64,000 nucleotides of DNA from Methanoregulaceae archaeon (GTDB lineage: Archaea > Halobacteriota > Methanomicrobia > Methanomicrobiales > Methanospirillaceae). Position 1 is the stretch's first letter. The number at the start of each line of letters is the position of its first letter. Made by a program: the position numbers and the translations under genes. Under the pieces are notes generated by a model that saw nothing but the letters and a program-made list of their open reading frames with translations, searched no databases and was not told the origin of the DNA. Location of the stretch: the NCBI GenBank assembly GCA_015660965.1, contig JACTVG010000005.1, positions 62,001 through 126,000 of the forward strand, in the 5' to 3' direction. Positions 9,669 through 33,585 of this stretch are shown here, one piece after another.

Positions 9669-9718
9669 CCCCAGTTTTTTATACAGGTGTGTGTCATTAA
9701 TTCTCGTGAAGTGTCCCC

Positions 9719-10543: not shown

Positions 10544-10555
10544 ATTTTTTTATCT

Positions 10556-10565: not shown

Positions 10566-10585
10566 TACTTTCCACAGTGAACACA

Positions 10586-11638: not shown

Positions 11639-11733
11639 CATTTTTTCCTCAATTATTTACATTGAAGTCTTGATATGTCTGCATCTTTCCTATCCCCCTT
11701 CACACCACCTGCCCCATAACTGTAACATTCCCC

Positions 11734-11790
11734 GCATGAGAAATACAAGATGCGTGTTAATCTACTTAAAAAGATGCTCTTTATAATAAA
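11734..11790. repeat. Direct repeat R1, copy 1 (duplicate of the pyrD upstream region)
   Basis: 57 bp beginning GCATGAGAAATACAAGATGC and ending in TTTATAATAAA. It matches 17773-17829 at 53 of 57 positions. The other copy is the functional-looking pyrD promoter region, with a TATA box 27 bases before the start. Here the TATA leads into no gene. The two copies are in the same orientation 6 kb apart and bracket the FilR1/ubiA/kinase/deacetylase/lipoprotein stretch. Confidence 0.8.
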
Positions 11791-11828
11791 AATGAGCCTC
11801 GAATCAGGTGGATTAAATAGCAGAATTT
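11791..11828. repeat. Short dispersed repeat R2, copy 2
   Basis: 38 bp starting AATGAGCCTCGAATCAGGTG, about 87% identical to 5975-6012 in the mdh-thiC intergenic region. It abuts repeat R1 without a gap, so this site is a join between sequences otherwise found beside pyrD and beside mdh/thiC. Confidence 0.6.
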
Positions 11829-12108
11829 GGCTCTGTAGAACTCCTCAACAACAATAGGAATAGAGAATAACAGGATCACTCTTGGGGGTTCTGGTGCGTT
11901 GTCGTGCCCTCACTATGGAACATAGAGACTTTGCTGTTGAGTGGTTTCAGAAAACAGATGGAATAGTTAGGAACTATTTTTGGAAGAAAATATGAAAGCC
12001 TCGAAGATGCACCGAAACCGAATTGTCCTATGTCTCCCCATTCCGGTTACAGGAACGATCCAGAAAGATAAAAGTTAAAGTGAGAGAAGGATATATCAGT
12101 CATATCCC

Positions 12109-13746: not shown

Positions 13747-13790
13747 ACCTAAAAAATCCTGTGTGATCTTTTATTTTAACCGAGGGCGGT

Positions 13791-13826
13791 TTTTTAATGC
13801 CGTTAAAATTTTTAATGGCGTTAAAA
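13791..13826 (-). promoter_or_regulatory. Tandem 18-bp operator-like repeat upstream of ubiA
   Basis: Two abutting 18-mers on the plus strand, TTTTTAATGCCGTTAAAA and TTTTTAATGGCGTTAAAA, differ at one base. Each has imperfect dyad symmetry (TTAA...TTAA). They sit directly upstream of the ubiA TATA candidate (13770-13780), the position of activator sites in archaea. The divergent kinase gene starts 140 bases away on the other side, so either gene could be the target. Confidence 0.55.
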
Positions 13827-13962
13827 TCGTGACTACGGGTAATAATATACTATTTGATTCTAATATGAACGTAGTGTGCGTATAATTCCTAGGATGAACC
13901 CGGGTGGAGTGCAAATATTTGAAAAATCTGGAATTATGCATCCAATTCATCAGAGTTGATGT

Positions 13963-15498
13963 ATGACCACTTCCACAGCACGTGACAAGCGGTCACTCAT
14001 AAAAACCAAAGAACCGCCAGAACCTGAACCAGCAGAGACCAGGACGAGGCGAGAGAAGGTACACTCTCGCAAGGATGCGAGGATCCTCCAGGACATCACC
14101 GAGCGCAAGCAGGTGGAGGAGGCGCTGCATGCTTCAGAGACCCGATATCGTCGGCTCTTTGAAGCGGCACAAGACGGTATTCTCATTCTCGATGCCGACA
14201 CCGGTAAGATCGTCGATGTGAATCCATTTTTAACCAACTTGCTGGGGTTCTCGCGCGAACAGTTCCTTGGAAAGAAACTATGGGAGATCGGGCTTTTCAA
14301 GGACATCGTTGCCAACAAAGACAACTTCGAAGAATTGCAACGACAGGAATACATCCGTTACGAAGATCTGCCGCTGGAAACCGCCGATGGGTGGCGGATA
14401 GACGTGGAGTTCGTCAGTAACGTGTATGTTGTGAACCACATGAGGGTGATCCAGTGCAACATCCGGAACATCACCGAGCGCAAGCAGGTTGAGGAGGCGT
14501 TAAAAGAGAGCGAGAAGAAGTTCCGTGAGACGGTAAAGTACCTCGATGAGGGATATTACAGCTGCACGGTGGAGGGGTTGGTGCTTGAACACAATGCGGC
14601 ATTTAACCGGATTCTCGGTGTCGGCATTGAAAAAGATTTGAAAGGAACATCATTACCCAACTTTTGGAAGGATCCTGCTGATAGAAAAAAATACGTTGAC
14701 GAGCTGATCTCAAAAGGATCCATACAAAACTTCCAGATCAATTTAACGACGATCCAGGGTGAAAACATCTTCGTTCTGGCAAATTCCCATATCGTAAAAG
14801 ACAAGAATGGCGGGGTGGTGAGAATTGAAGGGACGGTTACGGATTATACCGAACGCAAAAAAATGTCAGATCAGATCGAAGCCTCCCTCCATGGGAAGGA
14901 GACGCTGCTCCGCGAAGTCCACCACCGGGTGAAAAATAACCTCCAGATTATTATTTCCCTCTTAAACCTCCAGTCCCGGTTTATCACGGATGAGACAACT
15001 CTTTCCGCATTCAAGGAGAGCCAAAACAGGGTCAGGGCGATGGCCCTTGTCCACGAAAAACTGTACCAGTCCAAGGACATCTCGAACATCGACCTTGACA
15101 ATTATATACGGTTCCTTGGCGATAACCTGTTCCAGTTCTTAGACATGAAAGGAAAGGGTGTCACGCTTACGATGGATATCCGGGATATTTCCGTCACTAT
15201 CGATACCGCCATCCCTCTCGGGCTGATGATCAATGAGCTGATTTCCAACTCCTTAAAATATGCATTTCCCGGCGGGAGAAAAGGAGAGATCTCCCTTGCG
15301 ATCCACAGACAGGATCACATGATCACTATCCTGTTTAAGGACAACGGCGTCGGCATCCCACAGGACTTCGACTGGCGCAACGCAAAATCACTCGGGCTCC
15401 GGCTTGTGATCTCGCTCGTGGAACAGCTTTCCGGGACGATTGAACTCGACCGGATGGCGGGAACTGCGTTTACGGTTGTTGTACATGAAAAGGAATGA
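13963..15498 (+). CDS. Cytoplasmic double-PAS sensor histidine kinase (HisKA_2 type)
   Basis: 511 residues without membrane segments. PAS 1 is ~60-170 (ETRYRRLFEAAQDGILILDA), PAS 2 ~180-300, each closed by an ERK-type PAC linker. The phosphoacceptor helix is HisKA_2: LLREVHHRVKNNLQIIISLL (~316-335), with the phospho-His in HHRVKNN. The ATPase domain shows NELISNSLKYAFPGG (N box), KDNGVGIP (G1) and SLGLRLV (G2). The protein starts with a charged Pro/Glu-rich segment and a leftover PAC-like DITERKQ, so a longer sensor may have been shortened at its N-terminus. Base composition looks more GC-rich than the neighbours on its right. No response regulator is adjacent, as is common for orphan kinases in methanogens. 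Confidence 0.88.
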   Translation: MTTSTARDKRSLIKTKEPPEPEPAETRTRREKVHSRKDARILQDITERKQVEEALHASETRYRRLFEAAQDGILILDADTGKIVDVNPFLTNLLGFSREQFLGKKLWEIGLFKDIVANKDNFEELQRQEYIRYEDLPLETADGWRIDVEFVSNVYVVNHMRVIQCNIRNITERKQVEEALKESEKKFRETVKYLDEGYYSCTVEGLVLEHNAAFNRILGVGIEKDLKGTSLPNFWKDPADRKKYVDELISKGSIQNFQINLTTIQGENIFVLANSHIVKDKNGGVVRIEGTVTDYTERKKMSDQIEASLHGKETLLREVHHRVKNNLQIIISLLNLQSRFITDETTLSAFKESQNRVRAMALVHEKLYQSKDISNIDLDNYIRFLGDNLFQFLDMKGKGVTLTMDIRDISVTIDTAIPLGLMINELISNSLKYAFPGGRKGEISLAIHRQDHMITILFKDNGVGIPQDFDWRNAKSLGLRLVISLVEQLSGTIELDRMAGTAFTVVVHEKE

Positions 15499-15613
15499 AC
15501 CGGAAATGAGCATCCGGTATCCCCATTGAATTTTTTTTTCGAAATATTATGAGAACGAGAACGATTTTTTTTTAAATAACACGTTATTGACTGTGAATTT
15601 AGGGTGTTATTGT

Positions 15614-15721
15614 GTTAACGGGACTTAACAGAAATGACATAACCTTTTTGTCCGAGGAATGTTCAGATTTTCCGAGATAAAGAGAACGAACGACGTCAGA
15701 TTGTTCAGATGCGGCAATGTG
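15614..15721. pseudogene. Degenerate coding fragment repeat R3, copy 2 (frameshifted)
   Basis: 108 bp about 93% identical to 9237-9343. Here one extra T in the CAGATTTT run shifts the frame, so LTGLNRNDITFLSEECSDF runs into a stop four codons later. That marks it as decayed coding sequence. It lies in the 327-bp gap between the kinase and deacetylase genes, which otherwise holds only T-runs (15530-15575, possible kinase terminator) and AT-rich promoter-like sequence. Confidence 0.65.
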
Positions 15722-15825
15722 ACGCGGAGAGAATTGGAATTGCGAGGGTTACGAGATGGAGGATGAGAGAGAAAATGAGAAAAAGCAGAGTATAATTTTT
15801 TATGTTAAAATAGAAAAAGTCGTTA

Positions 15826-16704
15826 ATGATCCGGACACAGCAAGAAGTTTTAATTGTAATGTATCATTTCATTCGCCCAAAAACTGAACTTCCATACACT
15901 ACATTACCTGTTGAAAATTTTAGAAGGCAGTTAAAATACCTCAAAATGAAGTATCCTATCATCACATTAGGAGATGTTATTGACGGCAAACACGGGTGTG
16001 TTCTTACCTTTGATGATGGAATAAAAGACCATTATACAAATGTATTCCCGATATTAAAAAAAGAAGAAATTCCTGGTGTATTCTTCCCAATGACAGCATG
16101 TTTACAGCATAAAAATGTGTTACCAGTGCAAAAAGGACAGTGTCTTCGCGCGAAACTGCACAATAATGAATTTGTATTACAATGGAATGAGATTGCACCA
16201 GATGAATGTAAAATTGACCTTTCAAAAATCAAAGAAAGTTTAGGATATCCTGATGATGATAAAAAAACCAATAAAATTAAAACTTTTCTTTCAAAAATAC
16301 CAAATGAAAAAAAAGATCCAATACTTAGTATAATGTTTAAAACTCTATTTGGAAAGGAATCTGCGTTTGCCAAGAAACTATACATGAACTCTAATGAAAT
16401 CAAAGACATGGTGAATGCGGGAATGGAGTTCGGTATTCACACACACACTCATCCTTGTTTGAGAAAACTAACTGAAGATTCACAAAGACGTGAGATAGAA
16501 CAGTCAAAGAGATATCTGGAGAGGATTACAGGTAAACCTGTATCTTCTATTGCATATCCTTATGGAAAATATAACCCAACAACAATTAAGATATTGAAAC
16601 TATTAGGAATCAAGGTTGGTTTAAAAGCAAAAGGGGGTATTAACACCGGAAAATTGGATTTATTCCGGTTAAAAAGATGCGACACAAATAAAATTGAGAA
16701 TTAG
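15826..16704 (+). CDS. Polysaccharide deacetylase (NodB homology domain)
   Basis: 292 residues. The NodB motifs are present: VMYHFIR, VLTFDDGIKDHY (catalytic Asp plus metal Asp), GIHTHTHPCLRKL (the two metal His) and SIAYPYGKY near the end. Such carbohydrate esterase family 4 enzymes remove acetyl groups from N-acetyl sugars. There is no signal peptide, so it should act in the cytoplasm, perhaps on glycan precursors. An insert of ~75 charged residues (about 100-190) lies between the DD and HXXXH motifs. The gene is clearly more AT-rich than the kinase to its left, with Lys codons almost all AAA, which suggests acquisition by transfer. Start ATG 15826. Confidence 0.85.
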   Translation: MIRTQQEVLIVMYHFIRPKTELPYTTLPVENFRRQLKYLKMKYPIITLGDVIDGKHGCVLTFDDGIKDHYTNVFPILKKEEIPGVFFPMTACLQHKNVLPVQKGQCLRAKLHNNEFVLQWNEIAPDECKIDLSKIKESLGYPDDDKKTNKIKTFLSKIPNEKKDPILSIMFKTLFGKESAFAKKLYMNSNEIKDMVNAGMEFGIHTHTHPCLRKLTEDSQRREIEQSKRYLERITGKPVSSIAYPYGKYNPTTIKILKLLGIKVGLKAKGGINTGKLDLFRLKRCDTNKIEN

Positions 16705-16729
16705 AAAAAAGTTGGAAAACCGCATAAAA

Positions 16730-16758
16730 GTGATATCGGAAGTGATGGGTTCCAAAAT
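16730..16758. repeat. Perfect 29-bp direct repeat R4, left copy
   Basis: Begins GTGATATCGGAAGTGATGGG and continues TTCCAAAAT. It is identical to 17664-17692. The two copies, in direct orientation, enclose about 905 bp that hold a single lipoprotein gene. Confidence 0.85.
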
Positions 16759-16860
16759 GTGTTCAGAAAAAAGCCACAAAAGGATTAGCGGGATTATTCA
16801 AGAGTGCAAAAATCTGTAAAAAGTGTTTTGAGAGAAAATGAGGGATTAAAATATTATTTA

Positions 16861-17592
16861 TTACTCGTTGAATTTTAGTTCAACAGAGTCAAACATATCC
16901 ATTTCATCGTCTCTTACCGGAATAAAAGTTTCAATTATTGCTGGTTGATCTTGGTATAATGTTTCATTCATATTGATTTGAGTGACATCTTTTCCTTGAC
17001 TGTAAATATGAAATACGATTTCATAGTTACTGGAAACAACATTTCTAGGAGTTAATGTTGCAGATACCTCTACAAAAGTCCAATCAGGATTTTGAGGTGA
17101 TTTAGGAGGTGGGTTAATGCATCTGGCTATACCAATTGTTTTACTATTTTCATTTTTACCTTCTGTATAATCTCTAATAAATACATTAAACTCCCCCCAA
17201 GAAATACCAGAAAGTTTTGGGGGACTTGCTTTAAATCCATAATTGGGATCATTTGCAATTGCCGGAAACACTTCTTTCATAACACAGTTATTTATTTCAT
17301 ATGTGAGGAGAGATTTGTTAACTTTGAATTGTGTAATATAAGGATTCACAGTGGAAACAGAAGTTCCCTTTTGTTCTTTAGTTTCATTTTGAGTTGTGTT
17401 TATCGTTTGCCCAATACTTGTTGGTGCTAATGTTACAATCGTTGTTTGTAGTTGTGTCGGTGTGGTCGTTATCGAAATTGATTGAACTGTTTGTGCAGGT
17501 GTTTGTTCCGTTGTTGTTTTATTTGTGCATCCACTTGTGCACACAAAGAAAATTATAATAATAATTACTAAAATGGGAAATATCTTTTTCAT
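16861..17592 (-). CDS. Predicted surface lipoprotein, function unknown
   Basis: About 243 residues. The N-terminus has a Lys pair, a very hydrophobic isoleucine-rich core and a lipobox ending TSGC, so the mature protein should be lipid-anchored at that Cys on the outer face of the membrane. A Thr/Gln-rich low-complexity linker follows (~25-80), then a ~160-residue globular domain with alternating hydrophobic residues suggesting beta structure. No known family recognised. I use ATG 17592; a TTG two codons earlier is possible. The gene sits inside a pair of perfect 29-bp direct repeats and is AT-rich like the deacetylase gene, so it may be a recent insertion or cassette. Confidence 0.75.
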   Translation of the reverse strand: MKKIFPILVIIIIIFFVCTSGCTNKTTTEQTPAQTVQSISITTTPTQLQTTIVTLAPTSIGQTINTTQNETKEQKGTSVSTVNPYITQFKVNKSLLTYEINNCVMKEVFPAIANDPNYGFKASPPKLSGISWGEFNVFIRDYTEGKNENSKTIGIARCINPPPKSPQNPDWTFVEVSATLTPRNVVSSNYEIVFHIYSQGKDVTQINMNETLYQDQPAIIETFIPVRDDEMDMFDSVELKFNE

Positions 17593-17663
17593 AACCAAAT
17601 CACAACGCGGGAATATTAGTTGAGAGTATAATATAATTATCGAATTTCAATTAAAATCAAAAT

Positions 17664-21526: not shown

Positions 21527-22120
21527 TTAGATTTTGAATCCACAACTACGGCAGAACTTTGCGTTCGGTTTGAGCGGCTTACCACACGAGGGGCAGAAGT
21601 TCTTCGTGCGAGCTGGAGCTGTTTGTTGCGGTTGGACTGATGGGACAAGCGGCGGTGTGATTGGAACAGGGGTTCCACAATTGGCACAGAATTTTTTGGC
21701 TGACTCGATTGGGCTACCGCAATTTTGACAGATTTTTTTAGTTTCAGGAAGAGGAGACACTGGTGACCCGATTTGGGATGACGGGGTTTCTTTGAATAAA
21801 CGCTTTGATTCTGACTGCTTAAGTGATTGAAAGGATATTTTTGGTGGGGGCATTAATTGGCCATCCCCTACATAAAACGTCATTTCACCAATCTTGTATC
21901 CAGTAAATGGCCAATCGTTATGAACCCGATCGTACCAGCACCACTCCTGTAGAAAGGGAATGAGCAATAACTGGTATCCACCTATATTAATTACCCAGTC
22001 AATTGGTCTCCCAAATAATTCCTCTCGTGTTTTATTTGGATATTTTGAAGCGAGGAGGAGCAGCTCTTTGGCATGCTGCTCAAGTTCAGTCTGGGTTTTT
22101 TGTTGGTACTTATCAATCAT
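21527..22120 (-). CDS. Double zinc-ribbon protein, function unknown
   Basis: 197 residues. The first ~120 residues are an unrecognised domain rich in Trp and Tyr (for example EWCWYDRVHNDWPFTGYKIG). The C-terminal part has two zinc ribbons, CQNCG...FCANCG and CPSCG...FCRSCG, separated by a Pro/Gln linker. No signal peptide or membrane segment, so cytoplasmic. It lies 21 bases after the stop of the 771-residue membrane protein on the same strand, so it is probably the third gene of a unit with it and the multi-pass zinc-ribbon protein. The same ribbon type recurs in the neighbouring genes, which supports a shared function. Confidence 0.7.
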   Translation of the reverse strand: MIDKYQQKTQTELEQHAKELLLLASKYPNKTREELFGRPIDWVINIGGYQLLLIPFLQEWCWYDRVHNDWPFTGYKIGEMTFYVGDGQLMPPPKISFQSLKQSESKRLFKETPSSQIGSPVSPLPETKKICQNCGSPIESAKKFCANCGTPVPITPPLVPSVQPQQTAPARTKNFCPSCGKPLKPNAKFCRSCGFKI

Positions 22121-22141
22121 AGAGCAAAACTCCTGAAAGGG

Positions 22142-24457
22142 TTATTTTGCTGGTGTAAACCACGGGTGCTTTCGGTAGCTATTAACGATTGTTGCAGTTT
22201 GTTTTAATGAAGGACTACCATTTGCCAAGCTTTGTTTCACAAATTCTTCAATTCCTCTCTGTTCTCCCTTCTCCATGAGTAACTTTTGGAAATCATTCAT
22301 AGCTTCCGAATGGGTAACTGGTGAATTAGGATCATCGAGCTTCGTCTTCCAGAAATTTACCCATTCCTCCTCTGTTTTTATCACAGTAATGGTTTTTTTA
22401 TCAGGATTGTTGATGGGATCTTGGTAAGTTCTTTGATAGGACTCCCAGTAATCGACAACATATCGATCTCCTGATGGCGTTATAAAGAAGGTTGCGGAAT
22501 GATTATCTCTACTATCTGGCCTAATCGCAATTACATCTACATATGTCCCTTCTCCGAACACATTACCGATCGCTATTTGGCTCCTATTCCTTCCCCCATA
22601 TGCACACTCTCCACACTGAACATAAACAACATCAGCGGGGGGCTCCTTCCAATTAACATACGAACTAATTCCCGACAATGAAATTTCTCCAGCAAAATGA
22701 GGTGCGCTTGTATCAACGAGCCATGGATTTATAACGACCCATTTGTCTCCATGCATTTTTTGGATTGTATCACTTGCAACTGTAATGAGAGAATCAAGAT
22801 TCTCAGGTGTGAGTTTGATGTTTCCCCGATCAAGTGCCGGATCATTGTTAACGATTTGTTGAGCAAACTGATTTTGGTTGATGTTTTCCTGGTCATGCAA
22901 GTATTTTGTTATAATAGCGTTAATGCGATCTGCCATCGGCATATCAGAGTTTTCATTTTCAGCAAGGTATTTTCTGATCACATCCCAGACAGGGTCATCT
23001 TTGTCTAATTTATCGGCAGAAATGTCAGAGTTTTCCTGTTCAGCAATATACTTTCTTATTGCATTCCCAACAGGGTCATCTGCATCTAATGTATTGATAT
23101 CAAGTGGAGGTGCACCGAGCTGCTCAACTGGGCCCTCTCTACCAGCTTCCGCAGCAAGCTGTTCAAGACGACTCATGGGTCTCTCAGATGCGGGGGTCTC
23201 ACTCTCGGGTATGGTTTTTCCTTTTATGGTTTGTAATATATCGTCGACCGCTCCTCCGCTACCTCCTTCTCCCTCTGTATCACTCTCTGGGAGACCGGTA
23301 GGGAAGAAGAGTGAAAGTGCTCCCAAGGTTCCGCCGGCGAGCGCTCCTACCGCCCCAAACGTAGCGGGTGTCACACTGTCAGAGACAGCAGCGGGAACCT
23401 TTTTTATATCAATGGACCCCATTCCAACGCCATTCAGATCTTTCTGGAGTGCATCCATCGCTGTATTCTCGAGGTCCTGAACATTTTGTTGGACTGCTCC
23501 TCCAGATGGGTTCACAGAGGTTCCCACACCACCTCCAGAAAAGAGAGATGCGAGGGGATTGCTGGATGACGAAGAACCGGTGAATTGGTATCCGGTGAGT
23601 TCCATGGTGGCTGATGTCGTACCGGCACTGTCGGATGCCTGCATCTTAAGAAGTACAGGGACACTGGGATCAGTCCACATGTTCATTGTCATCGTGCCAC
23701 CTTCTGATCCTGACATTGACAGGGAATACTTCGTGGCTGATGAAAAGGTACCTGCCGGTACTGTAACGGATTCAGTAGTCTGGTATAGATGAGCTCCGCT
23801 CTGGCTTGCGACGTATCTGAGCATATCCCCTAAATCTCCCGAACTCAATTGGCTTGGTTGCGAATAGGTCATGCCAGAATTCGACTGCATTATTTTCGCC
23901 ATATCAGCGAGGTTTATAGAGATTGTTTTGCCATTCGCGGTCATGGTTGCAGTGCCTCCAATAATAGCATAAGAGACCGGATCCAGATACTCGTCCGCAA
24001 CCATGTGAATTGAACCTAGAGAGGAAGTTGATTGCTGGTCGACCTTTGAATGGACGGCATTGCGACTATTATACAGTTCGCTGCTAATATCGTACCGGAG
24101 CGTGGAATCAACCCTTATCGTTTTTACTACCTCTTTGTTCGAACCCGGTTCTGAAACTGGTCCAGTCATACTGGCGGTTGCACTGTAGGAGAACCACCCA
24201 AAGGGTATTTTCGGTTGGCCAAGCGTTGGTGTGGCAGCTGCCCTATACGTTGAATAACAGTACTTTGCGGTATTGAACTGGTCATACCCGCAGAGCGTGA
24301 GTTTTCCTCCACATGCGTCATACCCCATCTGTTTTGCCTCTGTTGGAAGCAGGCAACTACACCCAGCAGAACAAGTTGCAGCATGGACAACGGGAATGAG
24401 TAAGAGCACGAAAAGTAAAGCGGTTGCCGTTACTGACAGTTTCCGCATGACGTTCAT
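22142..24457 (-). CDS. Large membrane protein with Cys-rich N-terminus, helical repeats and possible Cys-His-Asp enzyme domain
   Basis: 771 residues. A signal peptide (~1-26) is followed by a Cys-rich segment (28-67, eight Cys) and a strand-rich domain (~85-292) reminiscent of LolA-like lipoprotein carriers (TESVTVPAGTFSSATKYSLS). One hydrophobic segment (~364-386) follows. The region after it holds three tandem ~25-residue helical repeats (~457-530; cores DDPVGNAIRKYIAEQENSD, DDPVWDVIRKYLAENENSD and RINAIITKYLHDQEN). The last domain has C615/C618, H653 in RDNHSATFF and D665/D669 in SGDRYVVDYWE, an order and spacing like transglutaminase-type cysteine enzymes. Overlaps the upstream gene by 4 bases. 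Family not recognised; the enzyme idea is inference. Confidence 0.72.
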   Translation of the reverse strand: MNVMRKLSVTATALLFVLLLIPVVHAATCSAGCSCLLPTEAKQMGYDACGGKLTLCGYDQFNTAKYCYSTYRAAATPTLGQPKIPFGWFSYSATASMTGPVSEPGSNKEVVKTIRVDSTLRYDISSELYNSRNAVHSKVDQQSTSSLGSIHMVADEYLDPVSYAIIGGTATMTANGKTISINLADMAKIMQSNSGMTYSQPSQLSSGDLGDMLRYVASQSGAHLYQTTESVTVPAGTFSSATKYSLSMSGSEGGTMTMNMWTDPSVPVLLKMQASDSAGTTSATMELTGYQFTGSSSSSNPLASLFSGGGVGTSVNPSGGAVQQNVQDLENTAMDALQKDLNGVGMGSIDIKKVPAAVSDSVTPATFGAVGALAGGTLGALSLFFPTGLPESDTEGEGGSGGAVDDILQTIKGKTIPESETPASERPMSRLEQLAAEAGREGPVEQLGAPPLDINTLDADDPVGNAIRKYIAEQENSDISADKLDKDDPVWDVIRKYLAENENSDMPMADRINAIITKYLHDQENINQNQFAQQIVNNDPALDRGNIKLTPENLDSLITVASDTIQKMHGDKWVVINPWLVDTSAPHFAGEISLSGISSYVNWKEPPADVVYVQCGECAYGGRNRSQIAIGNVFGEGTYVDVIAIRPDSRDNHSATFFITPSGDRYVVDYWESYQRTYQDPINNPDKKTITVIKTEEEWVNFWKTKLDDPNSPVTHSEAMNDFQKLLMEKGEQRGIEEFVKQSLANGSPSLKQTATIVNSYRKHPWFTPAK

Positions 24458-25389
24458 GGCGACCTCCCAAAACGGCTGGTTAGTGTTGCTATGAACACCG
24501 AATCTTTTGGAAATCTCTTATTTTTCCGGTAATGGATTAGCAACGTTCCGGCAACAAGTATGGCAACGACGATCGCAACGACAAGGAGGGTATCTGCATA
24601 GAAAATCACGAAGAGAAAACCGGCCAATGCTCCAACAACACCCATGACGGGGAAACCGGGAGCAGGTATCACAGGGTCGGTCTTTTTTACGAGACGATTC
24701 AGGTCAGAGTATCCCAAACGCATTGCAAGAATTGAAAGACTTTCCTGCTGCGTAAATAGGATGCCGAACATCAGAATGAGAAACTGGATGCTGGTCAATG
24801 GTGTTAAAAGGCATAACCTGATAATGAGGGCGATTGCGACACCCGACATTACCAAGGGGAATGCCGAGGTTCCCGTTGTCCTGATTGCCGACATAATCCA
24901 ATTCGGCAACGTCTTGAATTTTCCAAAACTTGTTCGCCACCCACGACTCGTTATCTGGGACCAGAAATAGGAAATAATTGCAGTTAAGAGGAACCAGAAG
25001 AGCAGGGCGTTTGGGTTCGACTGCAATCCAGTGGCAGCAAGAACCGAATTTTGCAGGTTACTGTTTGAAGTTTTCATGACCTGGACATAGGTGTGGAGTG
25101 CAAGGACGATCAGAAACGAGATGATCATTCCTTTAATAACGCTTTTGAGCATTCCCCGGATATTTTTCACCATCCCCTTAACAACCATCACAATAAGGGA
25201 TGGTAATGTCTGTGGAGGGGTAATGGGAATCTGGCTGACAGGGACGGAAGGACTTGGAGCAACCGGAGGTGGTGGGGAGGGAGGTAAAGGTGGGCTGCTT
25301 TCAATGGGTGCTCCGCAGCTGGGACAGAACTTACTTGTCAGACCTAAAGGAGATCCACAGTCACTGCAAAATTTCTTGCCATTTGCCAT
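24454..25389 (-). CDS. Zinc-ribbon, multi-pass membrane protein
   Basis: 311 residues. An N-terminal zinc ribbon (C8, C11, C22, C25: CSDCG...FCPSCG) is followed by a Pro-rich linker (~30-62) and about six membrane helices from residue ~86 (for example IISFLIVLALHTYVQVM, NALLFWFLLTAIISYF, and two near the C-terminus). The C-terminal tail is basic. The ribbon should face the cytoplasm. It translates into the 771-residue protein through an ATGA overlap, so the two are probably made in fixed proportion and may form a complex. No transporter family recognised. It diverges from the plus-strand zinc-ribbon gene at 25613 across a 220-bp AT-rich promoter region. Confidence 0.72.
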   Translation of the reverse strand: MANGKKFCSDCGSPLGLTSKFCPSCGAPIESSPPLPPSPPPPVAPSPSVPVSQIPITPPQTLPSLIVMVVKGMVKNIRGMLKSVIKGMIISFLIVLALHTYVQVMKTSNSNLQNSVLAATGLQSNPNALLFWFLLTAIISYFWSQITSRGWRTSFGKFKTLPNWIMSAIRTTGTSAFPLVMSGVAIALIIRLCLLTPLTSIQFLILMFGILFTQQESLSILAMRLGYSDLNRLVKKTDPVIPAPGFPVMGVVGALAGFLFVIFYADTLLVVAIVVAILVAGTLLIHYRKNKRFPKDSVFIATLTSRFGRSP

Positions 25390-25612
25390 AGGCTAACATT
25401 AGTTTTCGCTTTCTGAATGCTAATAAATATTTTGAAAAAGAATTCCTAAATCTTTTCAGCGGTATTCGGTTTTTAATTTTAATATATTTTTTTGAATAAA
25501 AAATCGCAAACATACTCTATTAATTACAAGATTATCGTATCACAATGTGTAGCGCTCAACCAATTCGAGTCATGGTGACACACCCTGCTCGCTGCGGAGG
25601 TCATAATTGCGT

Positions 25613-26632
25613 ATGGCGAACACAATTTCAACAAATGATAAAAATCTGACGTGTCCGAAGTGCAACAATCCGGTTAAACCGAATGAGAAATTCTGTGGCA
25701 ACTGTGGTGCAAAACTTGATTTCCAACCAAAGTGTGCAAAGTGCGGAGCAAGTCTCTCACCGACAGTAAAATTCTGCGATAATTGTGGAACTCCGGTCGG
25801 AAAAACGATCGTTGCACCACAACCCGTGACACCCAAAACGGTTTCACCGTCTCCCCCGCCGCCTCCTCCACCAGTACAACCACCAAAACCAATCCCAAAA
25901 CCTCCTGTAGCTCAAACTCCTCCACCTCCTCCAAAACCGGTCACACCCTCAAAAGTGCAGACACCACCACCTCCACCAGTGCAGCAACCGAAATCAATCC
26001 CCAAACCTCCCGTAACTCAACCTCCACCGCCACCCCTTGTCCAACCGCCTCCCCCACCTTCTGCTCCGATTGCAAAGGCAAAACCTGCAATAAATCAAAA
26101 AATGGTTATTATGGGGGTTGTTGTTCTTGTAATTATCCTTGCCGGCGTTTTCGTAGTTCTTCCGGCAATGTCTGGATTAAACCATTCATCTTCAGTTTCA
26201 AGTTCACCAACCCTCTCACCAACAGTTACCCTTACGTTGCAACCTACTTTCGCATCCCAAAATCCAACCACAACATCAAGTTCTCCCACTTCACTTAGCG
26301 CTGAAACCGGTTCACTCCAACCCGGTCCGACGCAGAATCCTCCAAGCAAGTTGATGGTCTATTTTTCAGTCCAAAAAGATGCGATTACCAATGATGTGAC
26401 CGTAACACTATCTGGAGGCCCAGGTCAGGTAATCGTGAAAAATGTTGAGTTCCAGTTGACGCGGTCGGATGGCCAGGTGTTGACGAAAGATTTTGCACCG
26501 AACCAGAAGATCAATGAAGCAACACTTCAAGGGACTTCTGGAGCTGATCGCGTCGTGGTCACCGTTTCATACTTTAATGGCGAAACCTATACGATGGTCG
26601 ATCAGTTGGTTCAGATGAGACAAAAGATGTAA
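25613..26632 (+). CDS. Double zinc-ribbon, proline-rich, single-pass membrane protein
   Basis: About 339 residues. Two N-terminal zinc ribbons (CPKCN...FCGNCG and CAKCG...FCDNCG), then ~90 residues of Pro runs and repeats, then one membrane helix (MVIMGVVVLVIILAGVFVVL), a Ser/Thr-rich stalk and a ~95-residue C-terminal domain predicted to be beta-sandwich and outside the cell. This is the same plan as the TIR protein at 29.5 kb without the TIR domain. A GGAGGT ribosome site lies 11 bases before ATG 25613 and 5 before an in-frame TTG (25607), so either may be used. Function unknown; perhaps a signal relay or scaffold across the membrane. Confidence 0.72.
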   Translation: MANTISTNDKNLTCPKCNNPVKPNEKFCGNCGAKLDFQPKCAKCGASLSPTVKFCDNCGTPVGKTIVAPQPVTPKTVSPSPPPPPPPVQPPKPIPKPPVAQTPPPPPKPVTPSKVQTPPPPPVQQPKSIPKPPVTQPPPPPLVQPPPPPSAPIAKAKPAINQKMVIMGVVVLVIILAGVFVVLPAMSGLNHSSSVSSSPTLSPTVTLTLQPTFASQNPTTTSSSPTSLSAETGSLQPGPTQNPPSKLMVYFSVQKDAITNDVTVTLSGGPGQVIVKNVEFQLTRSDGQVLTKDFAPNQKINEATLQGTSGADRVVVTVSYFNGETYTMVDQLVQMRQKM

Positions 26633-26761
26633 TATCCCTTTTTTCTATTATCTAAAAATCAATTCATATACCAGCTAGTAACGTCGAAAAATGGGTACTC
26701 CAATTCCCTTATCTATTGAAATTAAGATGGATGGTATTTTTTTATAGAATACAAATCCCCT

Positions 26762-27250
26762 TTACCCATTTTTCGCGCCTGTCAAACGAGAAATTTCGCG
26801 AATCGCTGTATTGATTAGATCAGTGACAGTGCTGATAATGTCTTCAACAATACCGCCCTGTCCCTTGATTTTAAGGGTTAGAGTTTGCTGGTAGAGATAC
26901 TGTCCGCTTCTCCCGTTAATTGTGACATCTGCCGTAACACCAGCAGGTACATTTTGGGGGATCGTGAGAACATAAGTAAACGATTTTGGATAGGGACCCT
27001 GGTACGTGCCGAGGTTGAGAGTCTGGGTATACCCCATCGATCCAACATTTGCCGTGAAATCGATTGGTGAGTTGAACCCTGGATTTGCATCGATGGTGAT
27101 GTAGTACGTAATCATGTCACCGGGTTTTCCGGAAGCAGTAACTGGAGTTACTGTAAAGGAATACGGTGCCTCGGCTGAAACTGGTACTATGCAAAGGACA
27201 AGAAGAGAGAGAAAAACAATCGTTACAAAGAGAAAGGAATTTTTGGGCAT
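26762..27250 (-). CDS. Secreted Ig-like/NEW3-like domain protein
   Basis: 162 residues. Clear signal peptide (to about VSAEA, residue 28). The mature part looks like one Ig-like domain of the kind seen in archaeal S-layer and NPCBM/NEW3-type proteins: SGKPGDMITYYITIDANPG, FTYVLTIPQNVPAGVTADVT and QTLTLKIK. A C-terminal amphipathic helix (~135-160) may contact the membrane or a partner, as no true membrane anchor is seen. Single gene between two plus-strand genes. It probably binds or decorates the cell surface; no enzymatic motif. Confidence 0.7.
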   Translation of the reverse strand: MPKNSFLFVTIVFLSLLVLCIVPVSAEAPYSFTVTPVTASGKPGDMITYYITIDANPGFNSPIDFTANVGSMGYTQTLNLGTYQGPYPKSFTYVLTIPQNVPAGVTADVTINGRSGQYLYQQTLTLKIKGQGGIVEDIISTVTDLINTAIREISRLTGAKNG

Positions 27251-27366
27251 GGTAGATGGTTTTGGTACAATAAAAAAAAAGACTTTCCATATGTATTCGT
27301 CAGTTCATTTTCGATACATATTAAAAAGAAGAGAATTTGAATACATTATAGAGAGGCAGAAGACTG

Positions 27367-27894
27367 ATGGATGCACAAGAAGCGGAAGCAGCGTATAGGA
27401 CATTAAAAAACCAGTTGGATTCAGGACAGATCCAGATGGACGTATACGACCAAAAAATCGCCGAACTTCGGTATCAAGACAATACAGGTACCTGGTGGGC
27501 GATCAACGGTACTGACGGTAGCTGGTTGAAATGGACCGGCAGCACGTGGGAACCGGCGTTTGCGCAGCAAGCGTCAGTACAACAAACTCCCCCCCAAGTA
27601 ACTGTTACACCGACAGTTACTACTCCCACTCCAGTGGCAAAAGAGAGAAAGAAACGGAATTGGGTTGGGATTGGGAGCCTTGTGTTCGGTATTTTAGCTT
27701 GGATAATTTTCCCCTATGTTTGTGGAGTTCTCGCTCTCTGTATCGGTATTTTCTCTCTCTATATCACCAGAAAAACGACAGGAAAAATTGCATTCGTGGC
27801 AATCGCTGGGATAGTTATCGCAGTTGCGTCAATAATTCTCAATTTCTTCTACCTCACCCTGTTTGCACCGCATATACTTCCAAGCTTGAAATAA
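27367..27894 (+). CDS. Small membrane protein with SHOCT-like N-terminus
   Basis: 175 residues. The N-terminus (AEAAYRTLKNQLDSGQIQMD then YDQKIAELRYQD) resembles the short helical SHOCT-type oligomerisation motif. A Trp-rich segment follows (GTWWAINGTDGSWLKWTGSTW), then a Pro/Thr linker and three hydrophobic stretches near the C-terminus, the first two in the style of DUF4190 membrane proteins (GIGSLVFGILAWIIF; CGVLALCIGIFSLYI). Cytoplasmic N-terminus and membrane-anchored C-terminus are likely. The Trp-rich stretch is similar in style to ligand or partner-binding segments but cannot be assigned. Stands alone on the plus strand inside the envelope cluster. Confidence 0.68.
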   Translation: MDAQEAEAAYRTLKNQLDSGQIQMDVYDQKIAELRYQDNTGTWWAINGTDGSWLKWTGSTWEPAFAQQASVQQTPPQVTVTPTVTTPTPVAKERKKRNWVGIGSLVFGILAWIIFPYVCGVLALCIGIFSLYITRKTTGKIAFVAIAGIVIAVASIILNFFYLTLFAPHILPSLK

Positions 27895-27921
27895 AACCCG
27901 TCAACAGAAAAGAAAATTTTT

Positions 27922-28590
27922 TTATTTTATATCGGTAGCTTCAAATTTCTTTTTCCGTTTGATACGCTTGTGGCATAGGTACCCGCCGGCGAACAATCCG
28001 ATGAGGACAATCCATGGAGGTAACGGCACAATTAAATTGTATGCGATTGCTGCTGCTGTTTTAGCTTGATTTTCATATTCATAATTACCTTCGGTATGGT
28101 ACAGCGTAGCAACATGTTCCCAGGTTGTCGATTCGTCTTTATGATTATCGGCATCCTTTGCTTTCTGGAGCGCCATATCGTATTCCTTTTCAGCTTGTTT
28201 GCAGACCGCATCCATTGTTTCTTTGTAATTTTTCACATTGCTGCTTTCATCAGGATGAATCCCTTGGTACTGCCATTTGATTCGTAATTTGGGATCATGG
28301 AAATCTGTAGAGAGAAGTACACTACAATTTATCCCTTGATAGGCAACACATTCATCGTAGGATTCTTTCTGGTACTGTTTTACGTAGAGATCAGTGTATT
28401 GTTGACACAACTTTTGGTACTGGTCTCCTTCTGAAATATGGTCCTGTGCACTCATTCTGTATTCCGGGACCGGAGAAAAGAATGCGGTAGTGATAATATC
28501 CTCAATTCCCTGTGCCTTCACAGGAGAAGGTATACATGATAGAATAAATATGAAAAATAAGAGGATAGTAAAAATCTTCACGAGTCGCAT
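27922..28590 (-). CDS. Secreted, C-terminally anchored protein with PLPPWI tail (paralogue A)
   Basis: 222 residues. Signal peptide (to about VKAQG), then a ~140-residue helical ectodomain with several Tyr/Gln-rich helices (YQKLCQQYTDLYVKQYQKES), then a C-terminal PLPPWI motif, a hydrophobic helix (VLIGLFAGGYLC) and a strongly basic end (HKRIKRKKK). It shares its plan with the neighbouring 28674-29390 gene: a similar QYTDLYVKQY/QYSDLFYDQSY core, an AYDMAM/EYDMAL segment and the same tail. The two are probably a tandem duplication. The tail has the layout of a sortase- or archaeosortase-type signal, or it may just be an anchor. Confidence 0.72.
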   Translation of the reverse strand: MRLVKIFTILLFFIFILSCIPSPVKAQGIEDIITTAFFSPVPEYRMSAQDHISEGDQYQKLCQQYTDLYVKQYQKESYDECVAYQGINCSVLLSTDFHDPKLRIKWQYQGIHPDESSNVKNYKETMDAVCKQAEKEYDMALQKAKDADNHKDESTTWEHVATLYHTEGNYEYENQAKTAAAIAYNLIVPLPPWIVLIGLFAGGYLCHKRIKRKKKFEATDIK

Positions 28591-28673
28591 GTATGGAAAT
28601 TGCGAAAAGAATTTATTAAAGATTGCGAATTTTACTTCTGTCGTTTTTCAAAAAAATTTTTGAGAGGGAACTA

Positions 28674-29390
28674 TCAAATTTTACTCTTTTTTTGTTGGAG
28701 TAGAACAACAGCGCCAACAACTGCTACAACAATGATCCATGGTGGTAGCGGAAGTCCAAATGAACTCATTGCTTCTGCTGTCTGTTCTGCGGCCGCGGCA
28801 TCCAATTTGTTAGCATCGGAATTTCGTCCCATTGTTCGATAGACATCGGCTGCATCAGAAAATATTTCTGCCTTTAGTGAATGGTTAGAATCACTCGTTT
28901 TACCCATCGCCATATCATACGCGTTAGCGGATCGACTACAGTAATACGAGGATTGGGAAAGGTATTGTTTTAATTGCCCATTTGTATTCAAAATCTCAGA
29001 AGCAACCGTGTTTTCACTGTTAGCAAATAAATTTGTTTTAAAGTAACTTTTGCTCATGGTACCATCTTTCGAAATATTGTATTTTGGGACAATTGTACTC
29101 AGATATATACTATAGCTCTGATCATAGAACAGATCCGAATACTGTTTGCATTTCGCAGCATTGGCATCGGCGTATGTTTTCCACTGGTTTCCATTCCATT
29201 CAAGAATTGGAAACGGTTCGAAAAAACCTCCGATTGGATCAGCAATAAAATTCGTTAACATAGTTCCTATGTCTGGTTCCCAACCAGCACTATAATCATT
29301 TTGGGCTGCTGCTGGTGGAATGAACGTAATTAAAAAAAGAATCCCGAGGATTACTATGATGAAAAGACATAGAAACGGTGGTTTTCCCAT
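28674..29390 (-). CDS. Secreted, C-terminally anchored protein with PLPPWI tail (paralogue B)
   Basis: 238 residues with a signal peptide (to about PPAAAQ), a helical ectodomain (KCKQYSDLFYDQSYSIYLS; YCSRSANAYDMAMGK; EIFSDAADVYRTMGRNSDAN, TPR-like in spacing), and the tail LPLPPWIIVVAVVGAVVLLQ followed by QKKSKI. The last third matches paralogue A best. Helix periodicity in the ectodomain suggests one or two TPR-like units. It is followed after 83 bases by paralogue A on the same strand and preceded by the TIR gene 114 bases upstream. Function unknown. Confidence 0.72.
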   Translation of the reverse strand: MGKPPFLCLFIIVILGILFLITFIPPAAAQNDYSAGWEPDIGTMLTNFIADPIGGFFEPFPILEWNGNQWKTYADANAAKCKQYSDLFYDQSYSIYLSTIVPKYNISKDGTMSKSYFKTNLFANSENTVASEILNTNGQLKQYLSQSSYYCSRSANAYDMAMGKTSDSNHSLKAEIFSDAADVYRTMGRNSDANKLDAAAAEQTAEAMSSFGLPLPPWIIVVAVVGAVVLLQQKKSKI

Positions 29391-29504
29391 ATCTATTGAA
29401 TGGATTAATTTTTTTAAAAACGTTGCGAAACGAAAACAAATTTTTTATGACAGAAAAATGGGTTAAGATTTTTTACTTACATATCATTTTTTTGATTCTT
29501 GAGT

Positions 29505-31160
29505 TTATAGGCACTGGCCCTGCGTGCATACCGTTCCACCCGTACACACATGCCCGCATGAACCGCAGTTCGATTGAGAGTATCTCAAATCGGTTTGCAC
29601 ACCGTTACAGATATCACAGTACGGTAGTTTGCAGAAATTCAGGCAGTAGCTCCTGAAACAATACGAACCTGATGGACATGCATGCCCGCAGCTTCCACAA
29701 TTCGATGAATCGGATGTCAGGTTTACACAGGTCCCAGAGCATTTAGTATAACCGGAGGTGCAGGTTACTGGTGTTGGGGTCGGTATAGTGGTAGTAACCG
29801 GTTTCACACACACTCCATTTTGGCAGCTTTGACCAGCTTGGCAAAACGCTCCGCACGCCCCACAATTTACTGGATCGGTCAATAAGTTCTTACAAGTTCC
29901 CATACACGAAACCTGTCCTGCGGGGCATGTTTGAAGAGTTGCAGTTGGCGTTGTAGTTGTAACAGCTGTTGAAATTGCTGCGGTGACAGTTGTCGTTGGT
30001 AGTATTGTTGTTGTTACCGGTATTGTTATTGGAATAACTGTTGTTGTGGGAATTGTTGATATGACGGGTGAAATGCACACGCCGTTCTGGCACGTTTGTC
30101 CCACGGAACATGCTATCCCACAACTTCCGCAATTGATGTTATCGTACTGTAAATTCCGGCACGCTCCGTTACAGAGACTTTGGTCTGAGGGACAGGGTGG
30201 GTTTGTGGTATATACAGAAAACGGCGTTGGAGTGTAAGTATAGGTAATTGTAGGAATTAATTGCCCTTCCTGCTGAATATTTTGGTTGTTGTTCGATGGA
30301 GCAGAAGTGGTCATTGTTCCAGGGACGACCTGCTCATTAACCGGAACGAAACCTGGTGCTGATTCTGAACTCGTCACAATTGTTGACGGTGTTGATGTCG
30401 AGCTGGGATGACCAGACAGGGCAAAAAATGCAAGTACTGCGACGAGAATTAAAATACCACCAATGATTTTTAGCGAGATTGGTATTCCGGCAACCTTCAA
30501 CGGTGGTTTAGGGACCTGTGGTGGAGGTGGTGATGGTGGAGAAGGTATTGGTGGAGGCGGGGGACTGGCCGATACAGGTGGTGGTGGAGGTGGAGATGCC
30601 GAAGGAGGCGAAAGCTTTGGTCCAGCTGAAGCACCAGAACCCAATGGTGCTCCGCACTCATCGCAAAACATTTGACCTGGATCTGTGGGATGTCCGCATT
30701 GAGGACAGGAAGGTATTGTTACAGGTTTTCTCTCTTTGCTCTTTTCGAGAATTGACTGAACGGTATTGCATAATCTATCGATATGTTCATCATACGGCGG
30801 CGTAATCGCATCGAGCCAATGCGGGGTGCTGATGAGGTATTCCATGGATTTTGATGGCAGGACATCTTCAATGCGGAATGGGACAATGGAGAGTCCCTTA
30901 TTGACAGCAACGGTGATTTCCCGGACAACGTGAGGTGATTTGTTTGAGTGCGACGAAAAAATCAAAATCATTATTTTACTTGATTCAATGGCCTCGATTA
31001 TTGCCTGCGGAAAGTCTTCTCCAGGAGGAACATCCCGGGGTGCCATCCAGCACTTAATATTCCGTGATTCAAGTTTTGCACACGCGACTTCAGCAACAGA
31101 TTTATCGTTCTGTGCAAAACTGATGAAAACATCGTGCAGATTGATGGAGTCCGAGGTCAT
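29505..31160 (-). CDS. TIR domain - zinc ribbon - Pro-rich - TM - four Cys-rich repeats: receptor-like protein
   Basis: 551 residues. TIR domain at 1-~135: HDVFISFAQNDKSVAE, CWMAPRDVPPGEDFPQAI, ILIFSSHSNKSPHVVREI with E81 at the place of the NAD-cleaving Glu of enzymatic TIRs, and SIVPFRIEDV. Zinc ribbon at 152-173 (CPQCG...FCDECG). Pro-rich linker ~184-222. Membrane helix ~226-250. Then a Ser/Thr-rich stalk and four ~40-residue Stig1-like Cys repeats at about 323-362, 412-451, 467-506 and 510-550, each with NCG[SA]CG at the centre. With no signal peptide, TIR and ribbon should be inside and the Cys repeats outside. TIR proteins cleave NAD or assemble signalling complexes; the ligand and output here are unknown. 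Confidence 0.85.
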   Translation of the reverse strand: MTSDSINLHDVFISFAQNDKSVAEVACAKLESRNIKCWMAPRDVPPGEDFPQAIIEAIESSKIMILIFSSHSNKSPHVVREITVAVNKGLSIVPFRIEDVLPSKSMEYLISTPHWLDAITPPYDEHIDRLCNTVQSILEKSKERKPVTIPSCPQCGHPTDPGQMFCDECGAPLGSGASAGPKLSPPSASPPPPPPVSASPPPPPIPSPPSPPPPQVPKPPLKVAGIPISLKIIGGILILVAVLAFFALSGHPSSTSTPSTIVTSSESAPGFVPVNEQVVPGTMTTSAPSNNNQNIQQEGQLIPTITYTYTPTPFSVYTTNPPCPSDQSLCNGACRNLQYDNINCGSCGIACSVGQTCQNGVCISPVISTIPTTTVIPITIPVTTTILPTTTVTAAISTAVTTTTPTATLQTCPAGQVSCMGTCKNLLTDPVNCGACGAFCQAGQSCQNGVCVKPVTTTIPTPTPVTCTSGYTKCSGTCVNLTSDSSNCGSCGHACPSGSYCFRSYCLNFCKLPYCDICNGVQTDLRYSQSNCGSCGHVCTGGTVCTQGQCL

Positions 31161-31249
31161 TTACTAATCACCTACATCGAATATTCTTCATCCTTGCATG
31201 TCTCATATTTTTACCAATACTATATTTCATCTCCATGTTGACTGTGGCT

Positions 31250-31840
31250 TCAGTTTTCCCCTCTGATCTCTCGTGAGGCATAAATCACGGCAGCTGTAAT
31301 TACAACGATGCAAATAACGGCCATTAGGAAAGCTGCAATACTGGTACCTGCTTGTTCAAGTGCCAGTATCAGTATACCTGGTATCTGGAACAATCCGATG
31401 GTGGTTACTTGTTTGTATGTCGATTGTATCCCGCTCTTCATCGAAGCATCTGGAGTTTTCGGTTGAATTGATGCGACAATCTGGGAGTCAGATAAGGAAC
31501 CCTGTGCATACCCAATAACATCAGCTGTTTTGACCTCGTAATATCGGATTGGATCATCACTAACAAAACAGTCAATCCGGATTGTTTTTGAAGTTGGATA
31601 TACTCGAGCAATTGTTCCAAGAATGTAGGGGATATCATCTTTGAAGGCATCAGGCCCAATTGCAAGATCGACATTATACTTTACGAGAATACTGTCACCG
31701 GATTCGACAACCTGTTGGACAGGGACGAAATTGCCATTGAACGAAGCGACGATTGATGCTGTGTTCTGAGCACCGCTCGCACAAGATACAATGATGATTA
31801 GAGCTAGGATAAAGAGAACAGGAAATTTGTACGTTTTCAT
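31250..31840 (-). CDS. Secreted/membrane protein of unknown function
   Basis: 196 residues. Signal peptide (to about CASGAQ), a ~100-residue ectodomain of alternating hydrophobic residues suggesting beta strands (SIVASFNGNFVPVQQVVESG, SILVKYNVDLAIGPDAF), then two hydrophobic segments near the C-terminus (GLFQIPGILILALEQAG and AAFLMAVICIVVITAAVIYA) and a short basic end. No known family. It starts 17 bases after the stop of the 575-residue secreted protein on the same strand, so the two are almost surely co-transcribed, and the TIR gene follows 90 bases on. It may anchor or partner the larger protein. Confidence 0.68.
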   Translation of the reverse strand: MKTYKFPVLFILALIIIVSCASGAQNTASIVASFNGNFVPVQQVVESGDSILVKYNVDLAIGPDAFKDDIPYILGTIARVYPTSKTIRIDCFVSDDPIRYYEVKTADVIGYAQGSLSDSQIVASIQPKTPDASMKSGIQSTYKQVTTIGLFQIPGILILALEQAGTSIAAFLMAVICIVVITAAVIYASREIRGEN

Positions 31841-31857
31841 GTCATCTTCACCGTCAC

Positions 31858-33585
31858 TTACAGCTCCATGCCATTATAACCGGTCTTCATTGACCCCATG
31901 TTCCAAATATTCGATCCCCAATAGAATGGACTATTCTGAAGTGTGTTCTTCATCGCATCGCTATTGGCGGGGACTTGCCGGTAAATCTCCGCACCGATAT
32001 CAAGACCCCACCAGTCCCAACAGTATTTTGATTTGTCAATATCTGTCCATGTAAATGCAGGCCATTGCATGGGGTGATTGACTGGGTCATTAAGGTAATC
32101 CAGGAACTTCTGTGGATCCGCCTTCGCAGCGTTGTAATAGTTCATCATGTTATTATTAATATTCTGGATGAATCTTTTGTAGACCTGATGTTCTCCGACC
32201 ACATTAATCCCGCCAACGTAATGCCACCCCCACATCCGCTGGGCATAGGCCATGGACGTTGTAATGAAGGTATGGTACCATAATCCTCCATTGTCTGGTC
32301 CGACTTTTATCGGTTGCAACTGGGTCGCATAAATGCCGTCATTAGTACTTGCTGTCTGCTGTTTTGAGATATCCAAAAGAAGTTTATTCCGGGCATCGAC
32401 CATTTTTTTCTGGCTATCGGTCAGAGCAGAATCCGGAACGGAAACAGCTCCGTTAGAAAAAATGCCTTGTTGTGACAGTTTGCTTTCTATCAAGCTCAGT
32501 TGTTGTTGATCAGCCGCGAGATTTTGCCTTGCGATAGCCTGCAACTGGCGGACATTATTTGTCTGTTCCTTGAGATAGTTATGGGCAGTTAATAATGCAT
32601 CAAAAACGTTTCCACTAGTGACATCTAGAGATTCCTGGAACACATCTCCTGGGCTTAGTTGTTTCGCATCTCTATTGAATCGGGCTGTTATCCTATTACC
32701 CAATTCCGATTCCGAGCCAGTAAAGAATTGGTTAAGGGATGAATCTGTCTTAGCTTTTTCGAAATCATCTGTAAATAGAAATCTACTGAGATCGGTCCAG
32801 TCAGAACTATCAAATCTGGACGAATGGCTTTGCAAAGTATGTGTCTTTGCATATTCTTTGAGGGCATTTATGAATTCGTCCTGGACTTGGGACTTGGTGA
32901 GAATAATTTTCCAATCTTCTGGTGGTATGCCAAAACCTTCGCAATCTGATCCAGGGTTTGATGGTGTTGGTTGACTCGCCTGAGTTCCAGATTCTTTATC
33001 AATAATTCCTTTCGCACAGGATTCAGCGGCGTTCATCATCGATGTGAACGCACCATCACCAGAGTTAATTCCTACACCGGATATGAAAATGTAATTATTG
33101 TTTTTGTAATTGAGGACATGAATTCCATCATACATGTAATTATTATTTGATTCCCCTTGTTTTGATGAATAGATAGCTCTGGTTGGTTCCTGCCCCCATT
33201 CAAGAACTACTGAATTTTTTCCAGTAAAGTCCGGTCTTGATTTTGGCATATTATTTGCTCGCCCTTTGAATTCGTCTTGAGCAACATCAGGACTTTCTGT
33301 ATGAATTTCAATCTCAACTCCCGTGCCGCTACCCTTATACAGGATATCACCGTATCCACCATATTGGCATGTCAGGGCACTATAACCCGTATTGGGATCA
33401 TTTTCGGTATAATTATAGTTAAGGGTCTGACTCACACCTCCACAACTACAGTCTGCAGCTGTAAAGAATGTTGCATGGACGGTTCCGACAATGCCCACAG
33501 AAGAACATAAAAACACAGCAAGAATAATTACCAGGAATTCACGGGTTAATTTCTGGTATTTCCAAAGGATTTCTATAAAAATCAT
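31858..33585 (-). CDS. Large secreted protein of unknown function
   Basis: 575 residues. N-terminal hydrophobic segment (~15-37, ending VGTVHA) acts as signal peptide or anchor. A short Cys-bearing region (ADCSCGG...LTCQYGGYG) follows, then a ~110-residue strand-rich domain with VEIEIHTESPDV and HVLNYKNNNYIFISGVG, a helical, Gln-rich middle (~330-395), and a Trp/Tyr-rich C-terminal domain (YAQRMWGWHYVGG, PAFTWTDIDKSKYCWDWWG). There is no C-terminal membrane helix. The Trp-rich end could bind carbohydrate or wall polymers, which is a guess. First gene of the minus-strand envelope run; the upstream 146 bases are AT-rich. Confidence 0.7.
   Translation of the reverse strand: MIFIEILWKYQKLTREFLVIILAVFLCSSVGIVGTVHATFFTAADCSCGGVSQTLNYNYTENDPNTGYSALTCQYGGYGDILYKGSGTGVEIEIHTESPDVAQDEFKGRANNMPKSRPDFTGKNSVVLEWGQEPTRAIYSSKQGESNNNYMYDGIHVLNYKNNNYIFISGVGINSGDGAFTSMMNAAESCAKGIIDKESGTQASQPTPSNPGSDCEGFGIPPEDWKIILTKSQVQDEFINALKEYAKTHTLQSHSSRFDSSDWTDLSRFLFTDDFEKAKTDSSLNQFFTGSESELGNRITARFNRDAKQLSPGDVFQESLDVTSGNVFDALLTAHNYLKEQTNNVRQLQAIARQNLAADQQQLSLIESKLSQQGIFSNGAVSVPDSALTDSQKKMVDARNKLLLDISKQQTASTNDGIYATQLQPIKVGPDNGGLWYHTFITTSMAYAQRMWGWHYVGGINVVGEHQVYKRFIQNINNNMMNYYNAAKADPQKFLDYLNDPVNHPMQWPAFTWTDIDKSKYCWDWWGLDIGAEIYRQVPANSDAMKNTLQNSPFYWGSNIWNMGSMKTGYNGMEL

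Follow-up and report, generated by a model that had tools for sequence, protein, structure and literature searches.

The gene at 29505-31160 of the window, by which we mean the whole 64,000-nucleotide stretch of methanogen DNA analyzed here, encodes a protein that, judged by its domains and its relatives, is a single-pass membrane TIR protein that arose by domain shuffling, from modules in use across the whole lineage. Its intact minus-strand open reading frame starts with ATG and encodes 551 amino acids, and its profile matches are far above chance. A sequence-only reading had proposed the order TIR domain, zinc ribbon, Pro-rich linker, membrane helix, Ser/Thr stalk, and four Cys repeats of about 40 residues; profiles from Pfam and NCBIfam, together with Cys counts, confirm this layout and give it exact coordinates (Table 1). 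The stalks are 33-48% Ser/Thr and carry no charge or almost none. Residues 230-248 form the only hydrophobic helix, which is flanked by three Lys/Arg residues on its N-terminal side and by none on its C-terminal side; hydropathy and charge both fit a single-pass membrane protein with its positive side inside. From this charge difference the topology should be N-in/C-out, with the TIR domain and ribbon inside the cell and the Cys repeats outside, in agreement with the earlier proposal.

Table 1. Features of the TIR gene and of the island that holds it (window coordinates)
Feature	Position	Strand	Basis
About 12-kb lineage-specific island from thrS to dcd with genes for secreted and zinc-ribbon membrane proteins; holds the TIR gene	21527..33585		Sister-genome comparison
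Island gene: double zinc ribbon, Pro linker, TM, "TRSDG" ectodomain	25607..26632	+	Pfam, relatives, TM call
Whole gene: TIR, zinc ribbon, Pro linker, TM, stalk, four STIG1-like repeats	29505..31160	-	ORF and Pfam/NCBIfam profiles
Ribosome-binding-site-like AGGTGAT, 6 nt 5' of ATG	31167..31173	-	Read from sequence
TIR domain, residues 9-131	30768..31136	-	Pfam TIR_2 E 2e-21; AF2 pLDDT 90, pTM 0.86; PDB matches
Glu81, conserved/catalytic TIR Glu position	30918..30920	-	Near-invariant in homologue alignment; aligned with Glu of TIR-STING, TLR6, Cat1
Zinc ribbon, residues 152-173, CPQC-x10-CDEC (Cys at 152/155/166/169)	30642..30707	-	Zn_Ribbon_1 26 bits against a cut-off of 25 (Pfam)
Pro-rich linker, residues 177-227, 49% Pro	30480..30632	-	Composition
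Single TM helix, residues 230-248, positive side N-terminal	30417..30473	-	Hydropathy and charge
Outer Ser/Thr-rich stalk, residues 251-322	30195..30410	-	Composition
Cys repeat 1, residues 323-362, 8 Cys	30075..30194	-	Pfam and Cys count
Second Ser/Thr stalk, residues 364-409, 48% Ser/Thr	29934..30071	-	Composition
Cys repeat 2, residues 412-451, 8 Cys	29808..29927	-	Pfam and Cys count
Cys repeat 3, residues 467-506, 8 Cys	29643..29762	-	Pfam and Cys count; AF2 of repeats 3-4, pLDDT 89
Cys repeat 4, residues 510-550, 8 Cys	29511..29633	-	Cys count; AF2 of repeats 3-4

The TIR head matches the Pfam model TIR_2 with 77 bits against a cut-off of 28, and the structure model that the sequence-only reading had called for, built by AF2 with 46 homologues, is a confident TIR fold. 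Foldseek places this model nearest to SARM1, to the plant proteins RPP1, RPS4, and RUN1, and to SPARTA and AbTir; a Toll-related receptor of Hydra is near as well. The best matches are largely NADase TIRs. Glu81, which the earlier reading had put at the catalytic position, indeed aligns with a conserved TIR Glu and is conserved in at least 90% of the 46 homologous TIRs. The other mark of NADase-type TIRs, the Trp of the WxxxE motif, is missing: the motif reads HVVRE (HxxxE), with His77 in place of Trp, as in most close relatives. TIRs for which no NADase activity is reported have the conserved Glu too, and it is no predictor on its own (PMC7075850). Because the Trp is replaced and the Glu is shared with such TIRs, we regard NAD+ cleavage by this domain as no more than plausible.

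Outside the membrane, three stretches match Stig1 (PF04885; 72.2 bits, cut-off 24.1), and residues 395-550 match the NCBIfam model C_rich_MXAN6577 (NF041328; 122.2 bits, cut-off 100). The four repeats contain 32 Cys residues in all. An AF2 model of repeats 3 and 4 is locally confident (pLDDT 89, pTM 0.52); a Foldseek search of the PDB with it returned nothing significant, and since the best match, to TNFR-type Cys-rich domains, had an E-value of 0.46, we claim no homology to them. With four 8-Cys repeats above family cut-offs, the protein resembles the STIG1/MXAN_6577-like Cys-rich proteins, but those encoded in other genomes of the family are lipoproteins or zinc ribbon-TM proteins and have no TIR domain.

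No second open reading frame matching both the TIR domain and the Cys repeats turned up in the family (108 genomes searched), in the order (232), or in a sample of 393 genomes from the phylum. A scan of genome contigs yielded relatives of the TIR domain only, in Syntrophomonadaceae and Alistipes, none of them fused to STIG1 repeats. The sequence-only reading had considered that the two might occur together in one strain only, by accidental fusion; among the genomes searched the two are indeed together in one only, but with the modules recurring an accident is improbable. Every module is found in like combinations minus one part, which points to domain shuffling rather than to a stray fusion. 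These combinations comprise (a) proteins with TIR, ribbon, Pro linker, and TM followed by a different conserved ectodomain with a TRSDG motif, among them a paralogue on contig C70 of the same genome and, outside the genus, some members without the ribbon; (b) proteins of the reversed order, ectodomain-TM-TIR, most of them carrying TPR repeats and a signal peptide; (c) TIR-less ribbon-Pro-TM-STIG1 proteins; (d) secreted or lipoprotein forms of STIG1 repeat proteins; and (e) soluble TIRs. The earlier description of prokaryotic TIRs as mostly soluble effectors therefore fits this lineage poorly, membrane-spanning TIRs being common there. Eleven signal peptide-TPR-TM-TIR proteins with Toll-like receptor topology were seen in several methanogen genera and families. 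In the literature we found no account of membrane TIRs in Methanomicrobiales, nor of STIG1 repeats joined with a TIR domain.

Both halves of the window protein have close counterparts in these groups. Its TIR domain falls in a clade of 14 sequences (support 99/96), where group (a) is accompanied by two TPR-type TIRs and one further sequence, and its partners there include TIR-zinc ribbon-TM-TRSDG proteins of the same family. Ten such TRSDG proteins share with it the TIR clade, the Pro linker, the TM order, and in most cases the zinc ribbon, but they have another ectodomain and almost always a neighboring PAS-RyR gene, which the window gene lacks. The ectodomain order, repeat-stalk-repeat-linker-repeats, is that of two TIR-less proteins of group (c). 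A swap between groups (a) and (c) would be the simplest history of the gene: the TIR head of the TIR-zinc ribbon-TM proteins conserved in the genus would have acquired the ectodomain of a surface protein of the zinc ribbon-TM-STIG1 type. Farther afield, three Syntrophomonadaceae proteins without a TM helix combine a TIR domain 49-53% identical to that of the window protein with a right-handed beta-helix, which Pfam shows in one of them. Members of this family are typical syntrophic partners of methanogens.

None of the seven sister genomes in the genus has the island: in each of them dcd (dCTP deaminase) is directly followed by thrS. The TRSDG ectodomain of the island gene at 25607-26632 is of the type found on the genus-conserved TIR proteins, and this gene has no TIR domain itself. 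Two large secreted island proteins (22142-24457 and 31858-33585) have related Cys-rich modules at their start (CSAGCSC / CSCGG). The first of these modules is also present in surface proteins that other genomes of the family encode, and the protein at 31858-33585 has only one partial relative in the family. Directly downstream of the TIR gene, 27922-28590 and 28674-29390 encode two adjacent secreted proteins, apparently paralogues of each other, that have a TM helix at the C-terminus and are possible partners of the TIR protein. A mobile-element origin of the island was considered and rejected: the island contains no long repeats, and its plasmid and phage relatives are distant TIRs only. Matches of island genes to defense models were limited to weak ones for TIR. 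Elsewhere in the window, another block of roughly 12 kb (6128-17598) lies between a pyrD-like gene (17850) and an mdh-like gene (5077) that are neighbors in two sister genomes.

Across the order, TIR genes tend to be accompanied by a gene with an RyR domain (PF02026), which lies within 4 kb of 26 of the 42 TIR genes in our set, against about 0.2 (0.18) expected. The two occur together in 26 genomes (Fisher p 2e-22, a value that ignores the relatedness of the genomes and is indicative only), and the pairing covers several genera and families and three TIR layouts. Counting against a messenger model, 20 of 44 RyR genes have no such TIR nearby. Conserved pairs were noted across Methanomicrobiales, including one at 64853-65910 on contig C70 of the window genome. 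Group (a) TIRs are directly adjoined by a PAS-RyR gene, in several cases with a HisKA-type segment. Where a TPR-type or soluble TIR has a partner, it is a TrkA_N/RCK-RyR protein, in one case with a clear ion-channel domain. None of the RyR partners tested is covered by a defense-system model in PADLOC or NCBIfam. Four residues are retained when the RyR domains are aligned (H in 29 of 29, W in 28, H in 26, and D in 27), mostly at exactly the spacing of H75, W78, H100, and D117 of RyDEP; according to a preprint on these phage proteins, the four are in contact with the ribose, the adenine, and the phosphates of a cADPR-derived ligand (PMC13232231). RyDEP differs in being a phage counter-defense protein, whereas the archaeal RyR domains belong to the host genome and are fused to TrkA_N/RCK with an ion channel, PAS-HisKA, SpoIIE, or AAA. 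Given the pairing and the retained ligand-contact residues, an ADPR-type messenger is the best guess for what the paired TIRs would produce. The C70 paralogue has an RyR gene beside it; the window copy has none within 4 kb, and there is none in the window. The genome carries two, the PAS-RyR gene on C70 and, on contig C47 (1547-3475), a gene that combines an RyR domain with a SpoIIE/SiaA-like PP2C phosphatase. Any coupling of the window protein to an RyR reader would thus be in trans.

Our preferred reading, held tentatively and at somewhat less than an even chance, is that of a surface-gated membrane TIR whose ADPR-type messenger is read in trans by RyR proteins. The disulfide-rich ectodomain would respond to a ligand or to some change at the cell surface; through binding or clustering, TIR domains would be drawn together at the inner face of the membrane; the gathered TIRs would turn NAD+ into an ADP-ribose-type messenger; and RyR-domain proteins would read it, for the window copy either the PAS-RyR protein encoded beside the C70 paralogue or the RyR-SpoIIE phosphatase of C47. 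The NADase activity, the messenger, the ligand, and the trans coupling are what we infer here, and three things count against the model: the fusion was seen in one genome only, the window holds no RyR gene, and the motif around Glu81 is HxxxE. The ligand data for RyR domains, moreover, come from phage proteins.

The protein could also be a non-catalytic assembly TIR in the manner of TLR/MyD88, which we think unlikely but far from unreasonable: clustering of the ectodomain would nucleate TIR-TIR contacts and recruit the C70 paralogue or others without NAD+ cleavage. The BB loop, RDVPPG, fits RDxxPG, box 2 of Toll/IL-1 receptor TIRs (PMC7075850), the solved TIRs nearest by profile include TIR-STING and Toll/TLR TIRs, and the His at the Trp position would suit this reading as well; on the other hand, Glu81 is almost invariant, and the relatives are paired with RyR domains, a cADPR-binding fold. 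The likeness to Toll-like and IL-1 receptors extends to a single membrane pass with the TIR inside and the sensor outside. However, Toll-like receptors have an N-terminal LRR ectodomain and type I topology, whereas here the TIR is N-terminal, N-in/C-out, and the C-terminal ectodomain consists of STIG1-like Cys repeats instead of LRR or Ig domains; a zinc ribbon and a Pro linker are present, and no adaptor is known. The TPR-TM-TIR relatives do share the topology of Toll-like receptors.

Slightly less probable is a sensor of abortive infection, in which contact with a virus or a cell at the surface would lead to NAD+ depletion or channel opening and to cell death. TIR NADases are common defense effectors, the gene lies inside a variable island, and the channel-like RCK-RyR partners of its relatives could be lethal effectors, but the gene has no defense neighbors, PADLOC and NCBIfam defense models are not reached, and the PAS-HisKA-RyR partners of group (a) relatives look regulatory. 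Like Thoeris ThsB and other prokaryotic defense TIRs, the protein has a TIR_2 fold, the conserved Glu, and a proposed ADPR-type messenger for a second protein; unlike them, it is membrane-anchored with an ectodomain, and the partners of its relatives are RyR proteins rather than SIR2-SLOG or Macro effectors. Membership in Thoeris, CBASS, or another defense system was rejected, as the matches were borderline or below threshold (ThsB_TIR 21.2 bits, right at its cut-off of 21.2 and for residues 48-98 only; ThcB4 20 against 220 bits) and no ThsA-type effector or other partner is encoded nearby.

An accidental fusion, a decaying gene, or a chimeric draft assembly is very unlikely: the fusion occurs once, which leaves an accidental origin some room, in a genome of 170 contigs and with its junction in low-complexity Pro-rich sequence, but the long open reading frame is intact and preceded by a Shine-Dalgarno-like site, Glu81 and all 36 ribbon and repeat Cys residues are kept, the TIR-STIG1 junction DNA is single-copy in the genome, the island has no long repeats, and no collapsed repeat explains the fusion, since other copies in the genome are 63% identical for the TIR domain and at most about 60% for the repeats.

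We consider the sequence and its domains, the fold, the sharing of modules, the island, and the TIR-RyR pairing of the relatives to be solid, and the window protein would, by the mechanism that we infer for it, be a novel variation on TIR signaling. The best mechanistic lead, and the part most deserving attention, lies outside the window DNA in the wider TIR-RyR network. It is possible, though doubtful, that methanogens possess a network of TIR receptors with swappable ectodomains (STIG1-like, TPR, or TRSDG) whose cADPR-type messenger acts on RyR proteins, including RCK channels; such a network would be a prokaryotic counterpart of Toll-like receptors plus the animal cADPR-ryanodine receptor axis. 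If these readings are right, archaeal TIRs work behind transmembrane sensors as well as in soluble defense systems, Toll-like receptor-like layouts arise with quite different sensors, and an archaeal TIR messenger is read by a domain found in animal ryanodine receptors, so that the long-debated link between a cADPR-type signal and the RyR domain would become testable in two-gene archaeal pairs.
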